DNA from: Haloplanus salinarum
Lineage (GTDB): Archaea > Halobacteriota > Halobacteria > Halobacteriales > Haloferacaceae
Direction of reading: 5' to 3'
NCBI RefSeq assembly: GCF_024498175.1
Contig: NZ_CP101823.1
Coordinates: forward strand, 3,106,987-3,170,986
DNA: 64,000 nucleotides
Shown: positions 60,003-62,012 of the stretch, in pieces
How positions within the stretch are numbered: position 1 is the first letter of the stretch
Layout: the number at the start of each line of letters is the position of its first letter
Position numbers and translations under genes: made by a program
Notes under the pieces: model-generated
Seen by the model: the letters and a program-made list of their open reading frames with translations, nothing else
Told to the model about the DNA's origin: nothing
Databases searched by the model: none

Positions 60003-60959
60003 GTGGACTCGGAGTACGCCTTCGAACTGGCGTTGTGTTCACACCTCGAAGAGCGGCGCGACTGGGTGCTCGGCCGCCAACTCGGCGCCTCGGTCGCCGA
60101 CCCCGGCGCCCGCGTCGTCGACGTCTGTGCGGTGGAGCCCGGCCCCCAGTTCGACCGACGCGCCGCGATCACGAGCGAGACGATCCCACCCCGAGCCGTC
60201 GAGAGCGACGTGGGGCCCGGCCGCGCGGTCGATCCGGTCGACGCCTTCGACTGCTCGCCCGACGTCGCCCGCTGCGCCGCCGACCGTGCCGCCGAGGTGG
60301 GATTTTTCGAGTCCGAGCGCCGCGGGAGCCGACGACACGTCCGGGCGACGACCCGGTACCCGGACTGGATCGGCCGTCTGATCGGGGTCGAGAACAAACC
60401 CGACCTCGGCCGCCCCGGCGACCTGGAGCGACAACTGCGCCGCGACGTCGCCCTCGGTCTCTTCGACGCCGTCGTCCTCGCCACCGAGAGCTACGTCACC
60501 GGCGCACACCTGAACCGCATCCCCGACTCGGTCGGCGTCTGGCGCTTTTCCGGGGACGAACTGACGGTGATCCGGGAGCCGACGCCGCCCGCCCCCGGCG
60601 CACCGGGGATCGAACCGCTCGCCGACCGGCCGCTCCGGACGGACGTGGCCGTCGTGTCGGCGGCGGCGAAAGCGCGGAAGCGACGCGCCGTCGCCGAGCG
60701 CGCCTACGGCAAGGGCTGGCGGCCGGACGCCTACCCCGGCTGTGCGTCGATGTGTCCCACCGACGAGGGACTGCCATACTGCGCGGCGTTCGACCGGGTC
60801 GTCCACCCCGGACGCGACTGCGGCGAGTCGTGTTCGGCCTTCGAGGCCGCGGATCCGCCCGCGGTGGACCGCGCGGCGCTGCGGGACGGGCGGACGCCGT
60901 GGGTCGCCGACCCGGAGGGCGTCGCCCGGCGACAGACGGGGCTCGACCGGTTCTCCTGA
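60003..60959 (+). CDS. DUF5787 family protein with PD-(D/E)XK motif and Cys cluster
   Basis: A 318-aa protein. The segment RYPDWIGRLIGVENKPDL carries Pro120-Asp121 and Glu130-x-Lys132, the PD-(D/E)XK nuclease core spacing. An upstream acidic residue lies in VVDVCAVEPG (Asp40). The C-terminal half has a cysteine cluster, CASMCPTDEGLPYC followed by CGESC, which could bind zinc or an Fe-S cluster, as in Cas4/AddB-like nucleases. It may act on nucleic acids; activity is unproven. A GTG at 60003 begins VDSEYAFELALCSHLEE. It is 11 nt after the DUF5808 gene. Confidence 0.8.
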   Translation: MDSEYAFELALCSHLEERRDWVLGRQLGASVADPGARVVDVCAVEPGPQFDRRAAITSETIPPRAVESDVGPGRAVDPVDAFDCSPDVARCAADRAAEVGFFESERRGSRRHVRATTRYPDWIGRLIGVENKPDLGRPGDLERQLRRDVALGLFDAVVLATESYVTGAHLNRIPDSVGVWRFSGDELTVIREPTPPAPGAPGIEPLADRPLRTDVAVVSAAAKARKRRAVAERAYGKGWRPDAYPGCASMCPTDEGLPYCAAFDRVVHPGRDCGESCSAFEAADPPAVDRAALRDGRTPWVADPEGVARRQTGLDRFS

Positions 60960-61187: not shown

Positions 61188-62012
61188 TCACAGGTCGTAG
61201 GTCTCCCCGTCGACGGCCAGCGGCTCCGCGAACGCCTCGTCGGCGGGGTAGAAGTGCGCGAGGTGGACGAGTCGCGTCCGGTCGGCGTCGAGTTCGGCCG
61301 CCAGGTCGAGCGCCCCCTCGCGGGTCATGTGTTTCGACCCGAAGGTTCGGGGGACGCCCGACTCGTCGTGGTGTTTCCCGCCCAGCGGGTGGTGTTCGCA
61401 CGACGACGCGGGGACGATGGCGTCGGCGAGGAGGAGGTCGGGGTCGGCGAGCGCCGCCCGGGTCTCCGCGGGCATCCCGAAGCTCGTGTCGCCGGTGAGC
61501 GAGCATTTCGCGCCCGTCTCGGGGTCCTCGACCACGACGCCGTAACACAGGAGCGGCGGGTGGTCGACGGGGACGAAACGCACGTCGAGGCCACAGACAC
61601 GGATGCGCTCGTGGGGGTCGTGGCCGTGGACGTGCACCCGGTCGAGGTAGTCGTACTTCCGGCGGATGGTGTCGGCGACGCTCTCCTCGGTGACCGGGTC
61701 GACGACGTCCGTCGCGTGGACGGGCAGGTCGTCGAACAGGCGGTAGGCGTTGCCGAGGCCGTCGAGGTGATCGAAGTGGATGTGCGTCACGAGGGCGGCG
61801 TCCGGGAGCGGGACGTCCTGCGTGAGAAACTGGTGGCGGAAGTCGGGGCTGAAATCGATCAACAGCGCCTCGCCGGTCCGGTCGTTCTCGACGTGGACCG
61901 AGAACCGCGAGCGCTCGACGCCGCGCTCCCGCGCCCGCTCGCAGGTGGCACAGTCACAGCCGACCGTCGGGGTCCCCGTCGTGTCGCCGGTTCCGAGTAG
62001 CGTCACCCGCAT
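61188..62012 (-). CDS. PhnP-like MBL-fold phosphodiesterase
   Basis: A 274-aa MBL protein. The N-terminal MRVTLLGTGDTTGTPTVGCD is followed by CDCATCERARERGVERSRFS, which is typical of PhnP/PQQ-type enzymes and provides structural zinc cysteines. The dimetal motif is THIHFDHLDG (His77, His79, Asp81, His82), with later ligands in SLTGDTSFG and HLAHFYP. Family members cleave cyclic phosphodiesters such as phosphoribosyl 1,2-cyclic phosphate. Substrate here is unknown. Confidence 0.88.
   Translation of the reverse strand: MRVTLLGTGDTTGTPTVGCDCATCERARERGVERSRFSVHVENDRTGEALLIDFSPDFRHQFLTQDVPLPDAALVTHIHFDHLDGLGNAYRLFDDLPVHATDVVDPVTEESVADTIRRKYDYLDRVHVHGHDPHERIRVCGLDVRFVPVDHPPLLCYGVVVEDPETGAKCSLTGDTSFGMPAETRAALADPDLLLADAIVPASSCEHHPLGGKHHDESGVPRTFGSKHMTREGALDLAAELDADRTRLVHLAHFYPADEAFAEPLAVDGETYDL

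Follow-up and report, generated by a model that had tools for sequence, protein, structure and literature searches.

DUF5787, a near-universal haloarchaeal protein family with a predicted MmcB-like PD-(D/E)XK core and, in one of its two paralogues, a candidate PCNA-binding motif

Introduction

Which function might be carried by a protein that nearly all haloarchaea encode and to which none has been assigned? A survey published in 2012 named 55 haloarchaeal signature proteins, a function being predicted for only one of them (PMC3287961), and the family DUF5787, near-universal in its class, fits this description. In the open-access papers searched, we found no mention of DUF5787 by name. The haloarchaea include Haloferax volcanii, one of the chief organisms in which archaeal replication and repair are studied. 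No such protein is described in the available parts of a review on archaeal PCNA (PMC4929162) and of a review on repair in Haloferax (PMC7776575).

Here, a DUF5787 gene of Haloplanus salinarum was analyzed, whose genome is a single contig of 3.45 Mb. The gene lies in a window of 64,000 nucleotides (NZ_CP101823.1, positions 3,106,987 to 3,170,986), to which all coordinates refer. An initial annotation of the window had attributed a PD-(D/E)XK core and a C-terminal cysteine cluster to the gene product, compared it with nucleases of the Cas4/AddB type and considered a DNA-processing role. We asked which of these features hold within the family and which function they suggest.

Results

The gene, its paralogue and the distribution of the family

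The ORF and the family assignment of the initial annotation were both borne out: re-reading of positions 60003..60959 (forward strand) gave an ORF of 318 aa with a GTG start, and the Pfam profile PF19100 (DUF5787) matched its product with an E-value of 5.8e-90. The GTG is located 11 nt past the stop codon of a DUF5808 gene (PF19124; 59704..59991, forward strand) and is consistent with the starts of the homologues. According to Pfam, alignments and a structure model, the protein combines a predicted MmcB-like PD-(D/E)XK core with a winged-helix insert, a C-terminal Cys4 region and a candidate PIP box. Haloplanus ruber is the closest relative among the matches listed, its protein being 88% identical.

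Of the 292 genomes of the haloarchaeal class searched with PF19100, 289 contain DUF5787, nearly always with two matches each. The three genomes without a match (G021, G218 and G285) are all small (1.9–2.3 Mb). In each of 15 genomes inspected closely, one copy of type A and one of type B were present; third matches in two of these genomes were split hits. In the tree, the two types are separated by a branch with 100/100 support, and the duplication that gave rise to types A and B is therefore ancient. The usual set per genome thus comprises type B, to which the protein studied here belongs and which carries the PIP box, and type A, which lacks it and adjoins a NUDIX gene. In one type-B protein (that of genome G045), about 60 additional residues, some of them in Gly- and Ser-rich sequence, are inserted near the position of residue 185 of the H. 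salinarum protein.

DUF5787 is best read as specific to haloarchaea, with no credible match outside the class. The sole further PF19100 match across the phylum (genome G481, E 2.9e-4) is positioned inside a methionyl-tRNA synthetase, presumably in its zinc region, and was taken as chance. Many PD-(D/E)XK proteins belong to defence or mobile-element systems, and type B might likewise be part of an anti-phage defence or mobile-element system. However, PADLOC returned no match to the protein and PHROGs none of significance, scans of viral contigs found no relatives of DUF5787, and occurrence in almost every genome of the class, usually as two copies, is a housekeeping pattern, so that this explanation appears extremely unlikely.

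Predicted fold

An AlphaFold model of the type-B protein, built with 60 sequences, reached a pLDDT of 85.5 and a pTM of 0.79. It opens with a helix (residues 3-18) and two strands (22-28 and 38-46); helices and a beta hairpin then form an insert (50-115), after which a third strand (123-131), a helix (141-151) and a further strand (156-161) follow. The model thereby supports a PD-(D/E)XK core of alpha-beta-beta-beta-alpha-beta topology into which a predicted winged helix is inserted after strand 2 and before strand 3. This winged-helix domain (residues 58-118; 60174..60356, forward strand) resembles the corresponding domain of Hop2 (Z 6.6), CadC (Z 6.4) and Z-alpha (Z 6.4).

By far the best structural match of the model was MmcB (3DNX; Z 12.8, 131 of 146 residues, rmsd 2.7, VIA-align), a member of the MmcB-like Pfam family PF06319; the aligned region reaches up to model residue 238. 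It was followed by PaqCI (Z 9.3), NucS/EndoMS (8.2), Can2 (8.0) and Card1 (7.9), which have the same nuclease fold. In Foldseek, 3DNX was also the best match, with an E-value of only 5.6e-3. Independently of the comparison with 3DNX, the whole-core matches from a library of viral structures were MmcB-like proteins. Two of the phage MmcB-like proteins, from phage NCTB (L146) and Erwinia phage Yoloswag (H18), are labelled "transcription elongation factor", which is probably a misannotation. The PD-(D/E)XK core proposed initially is thus supported at the level of the predicted fold, with MmcB and not Cas4 as the top match.

On the sequence level, profile-profile comparison by hhalign aligned the DUF5787 core with MmcB at P 0.0014 and with the R-x-D and E-x-K motifs in register, at an hhalign probability of only 10-17%. 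As a control, 37 unrelated haloarchaeal families were compared, among which the best P was 0.046; Hjc gave P 0.11, out of register, and NucS P 0.27. In view of these controls and of the Z-score of the structural match, we regard the relation to MmcB as suggestive by sequence and good by structure. DUF5787 lies outside PF06319 as defined: the PF06319 profile matched neither paralogue and nothing else in 15 haloarchaeal genomes. The NucS_C profile (PF01939) did not match DUF5787; a NucS match is present elsewhere in the H. salinarum genome. A sequence search of the PDB with the DUF5787 protein returned nothing significant.

Active-site motifs

Conservation was analyzed in two alignments, one with 58 sequences from types A and B together and one with 60 type-B orthologues. 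Invariant in both were Glu8, Glu16, Asp40, Glu130, Asn131, Lys132, Gln144 and Asp148, together with Cys247, Cys260, Cys273 and Cys277. Glu8 (60024..60026, forward strand, as are all following codons), located in helix 1, is the candidate acid of motif I, and Glu16 (60048-60050) accompanies it. Asp40 (60120..60122) stands at the start of strand 2 as the predicted metal-binding Asp of motif II, and hhalign placed it in R-x(1-2)-D register with MmcB. Motif III (E-x-K) is formed by Glu130-Asn131-Lys132 (60390..60398) at the end of strand 3, and Gln144 and Asp148 (60432..60446) in the subsequent helix are a candidate motif IV. The protein thus has the arrangement that defines PD-(D/E)XK enzymes, an Asp in strand 2 and (D/E)xK in strand 3. 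With Asp40 as its Asp, this set of motifs is no chance pattern, as it is invariant throughout both alignments.

The initial annotation had read a motif Asp from the spacing Pro120-Asp121-x8-Glu130-Asn-Lys132. This spacing exists, and Glu130 and Lys132 are invariant; Asp121, however, is not the motif Asp. Among the 60 type-B orthologues, residue 121 is Asp in 50 and G, E, R, Q, N, A or T in the remainder, and the loop around it (Pro120-Asp121-Trp122; 60360..60368) alternates between YPxW and YPxxW, its Pro and Trp being conserved. Because about one in six homologues differs at residue 121, we rejected it as the catalytic Asp, and since the length of the loop also changes, Pro120-Asp121 is regarded as part of a loop beside strand 3. 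It is Asp40 that fits the motif Asp; this residue belongs to strand 2, some 90 residues ahead of Glu130, and the predicted winged helix is located between the two. Loss of Asp121 among homologues, which had been named at the outset as evidence against the nuclease reading, was thus observed, whereas Glu130 and Lys132 were never lost; as Asp121 is very unlikely to be catalytic, the nuclease conclusion survives.

C-terminal cysteine region

Instead of the six cysteines initially counted in the C-terminal half, five are present (residues 247, 251, 260, 273 and 277). Four of them (247, 260, 273 and 277) are invariant in both paralogues, and Cys251 is not conserved. In alignments and models, these four residues delimit a Cys4 region (C-x12-C-x12-C-x3-C; 60741..60833, forward strand), which is a candidate site for either Zn or an Fe-S cluster. 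When the C-terminal region was modelled alone, no useful structural match resulted, the best one being the small subunit of a glycyl-radical enzyme (Z 2.3).

An E-x-K motif together with a cysteine cluster, and this sole, very weak match of the cysteine region, would be in line with an Fe-S exonuclease of the Cas4/AddB type with Asp121 as the motif Asp. In Cas4 and AddB, which likewise combine a PD-(D/E)XK fold with a cysteine cluster, the Fe-S cysteines flank the nuclease domain, one of them being N-terminal to the motifs. In DUF5787, by contrast, all four invariant cysteines follow the nuclease core; in the alignments, Cys12 is near-invariant and can be Ser. Considering also that Asp121 varies and that MmcB is the nearest structure, the initial comparison with Cas4/AddB fails, and such an enzyme is very improbable here.

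A candidate PIP box at the C terminus

The type-B protein of H. salinarum ends with QTGLDRF-S. This stretch (QTGLDRF, residues 311-317; 60933..60953, forward strand), which had escaped the initial annotation, is probably a PCNA-binding (PIP) box, as predicted from the sequence. PCNA clients carry Q-x-x-h-x-x-a-a at a flexible terminus, according to the available part of PMC4929162, which also describes C-terminal PIP motifs in Pyrococcus NucS and archaeal NreA. The motif of type B, QxxLxxF, has one aromatic residue and not two, as is also the case for FEN1 and NreA of the same genome, whose tails read QTGLDRWT and QTTLDRF, respectively. As expected from the flexibility of PIP boxes, the tail is of low confidence in the AlphaFold model.

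The pattern Q-x-x-(L/I/M/V)-x-x-(F/Y/W) terminates 79 of 80 type-B orthologues, the lone exception (L105) showing an apparent frame shift near its end, and none of 44 type-A proteins. Within the last 12 residues of 1127 neighboring ORFs, which were called greedily and are in part spurious, it did not occur at all, and shuffled tails showed it at a rate of 0.13%. A DNA pattern encoding Q-(A/S/T)-G-L-D-R-(F/W) has exactly two sites in the 3.45 Mb genome, the fen1 locus and the type-B gene; the reversed pattern has none.

A PCNA-bound protein of this architecture might also merely bind DNA or act as a scaffold, retaining the nuclease fold without catalysis, since the predicted winged helix and the Cys4 region could bind DNA alone. 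We consider this improbable, as neither of the two ancient paralogues shows any variation in the candidate metal ligands or the Lys, a pattern difficult to account for if catalysis had been lost.

Gene neighborhood

Among 80 type-B loci, a DUF5808 gene is located closely upstream only in Haloplanus; at 19 other loci, DUF5808 homologues are found elsewhere in the neighborhood. Downstream, a convergent gene (61188..62012, reverse strand) encodes, according to Pfam, a hydrolase of the metallo-beta-lactamase fold, PhnP/RNase Z-like, and such a gene is near type B in 50 of the 80 loci. In most type-A loci, a NUDIX gene of the same orientation precedes type A, and DUF5797 is located downstream. Among those families of the class that were sampled, the NUDIX hydrolase ahead of type A (e.g., L002:679-2199) is about 82-92% identical. 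In two phages, Dickeya phage AD1 (L147) and Erwinia phage pEa_SNUABM_5 (L150), MmcB-like genes immediately follow a NUDIX gene and precede a dTMP kinase gene, an order of NUDIX and MmcB-like gene that resembles that of NUDIX and type A. The neighborhoods of types A and B revealed no repair partner for DUF5787 and point to no particular pathway.

Some type-B loci adjoin an oppositely transcribed cluster whose genes, judged by their sequences, belong to translation and transcription. The PD-(D/E)XK fold can serve RNA, and Card1 and Can2, which were among the structural matches, can act on RNA. Type B could accordingly be an RNA nuclease, e.g., in tRNA or rRNA processing, with its C-terminal motif serving another contact. 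However, the genes of this cluster run on the opposite strand and were not seen beside type A, the closest fold is that of a DNA repair protein, and the PIP box is the signature of the PCNA clients FEN1 and NreA of the same genome. An RNA nuclease is, on balance, a poor candidate.

Discussion

Proposed function

Type B of DUF5787 is probably a PCNA-bound DNA nuclease of haloarchaeal genome maintenance. The computations yielded the fold, the conserved motifs, the PIP box, the near-universal distribution and the ancient A/B duplication; catalysis, PCNA binding, a DNA substrate and the roles of the winged helix and the Cys4 region are what we infer for this paralogue. The DNA-processing role suggested initially is, in view of the fold and the match to MmcB, also the best reading of the present data. 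Location at PCNA together with a nuclease core would give a widespread blank gene a testable job in genome maintenance.

The PIP box would hook type B onto the sliding clamp PCNA and thereby keep it at newly synthesised or repaired DNA, where winged helix and Cys4 region may touch the DNA and recognise its structure. An MmcB-like metal site formed by Glu8/Glu16, Asp40, Glu130 and Lys132, with Gln144, could then cleave a strand where the DNA is damaged or branched, either at the fork or behind it; this would probably serve the repair of bulky or crosslinking lesions. Type A, lacking a PIP box, may act on the same lesions off the clamp. Crosslink repair in particular is suggested by likeness to MmcB, FAN1 and NreA; as an analogy drawn from the mitomycin C roles of MmcB and NreA, and not a result, we hold it to be possible and rather unlikely. 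More doubtful still is the wider idea that A and B form a haloarchaea-specific pair of repair nucleases, one of them tied to the clamp and the other free, in an unrecognised core pathway of crosslink or fork repair, possibly as the missing nuclease that deals with mitomycin C damage jointly with NreA and UvrABC.

Comparison with known systems

The alphaproteobacterial MmcB, which protects Caulobacter from mitomycin C and was described as a PD-(D/E)XK endonuclease (PMC9578287), has the core fold in common with type B over 131 of 146 residues (3DNX, SPO1766), with R-x-D and E-x-K in register. It differs by its size of about 160 aa and by lacking the winged helix, the Cys4 region and the PIP box, all three of which are present in type B. 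NucS/EndoMS is an archaeal nuclease of the PD-(D/E)XK fold predicted for type B and carries a C-terminal PIP motif in Pyrococcus (available part of PMC4929162), whereas it has an N-terminal OB-like domain and a core without a winged helix, and its profile shows no similarity to that of DUF5787. NreA (PF04895) is likewise archaeal with a C-terminal PIP motif, and in Haloferax it is required, together with this motif, for repair of mitomycin C damage; it belongs to another Pfam family and, as far as the accessible text of PMC4929162 states, has no known catalytic activity. Closest to the proposed way of working of type B is FAN1 (VRR-Nuc), a PCNA-linked nuclease that acts on crosslinks according to the available parts of PMC4103454, PMC5648898 and PMC10438374. 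FAN1 is eukaryotic, belongs to the VRR-Nuc family and has other domains.
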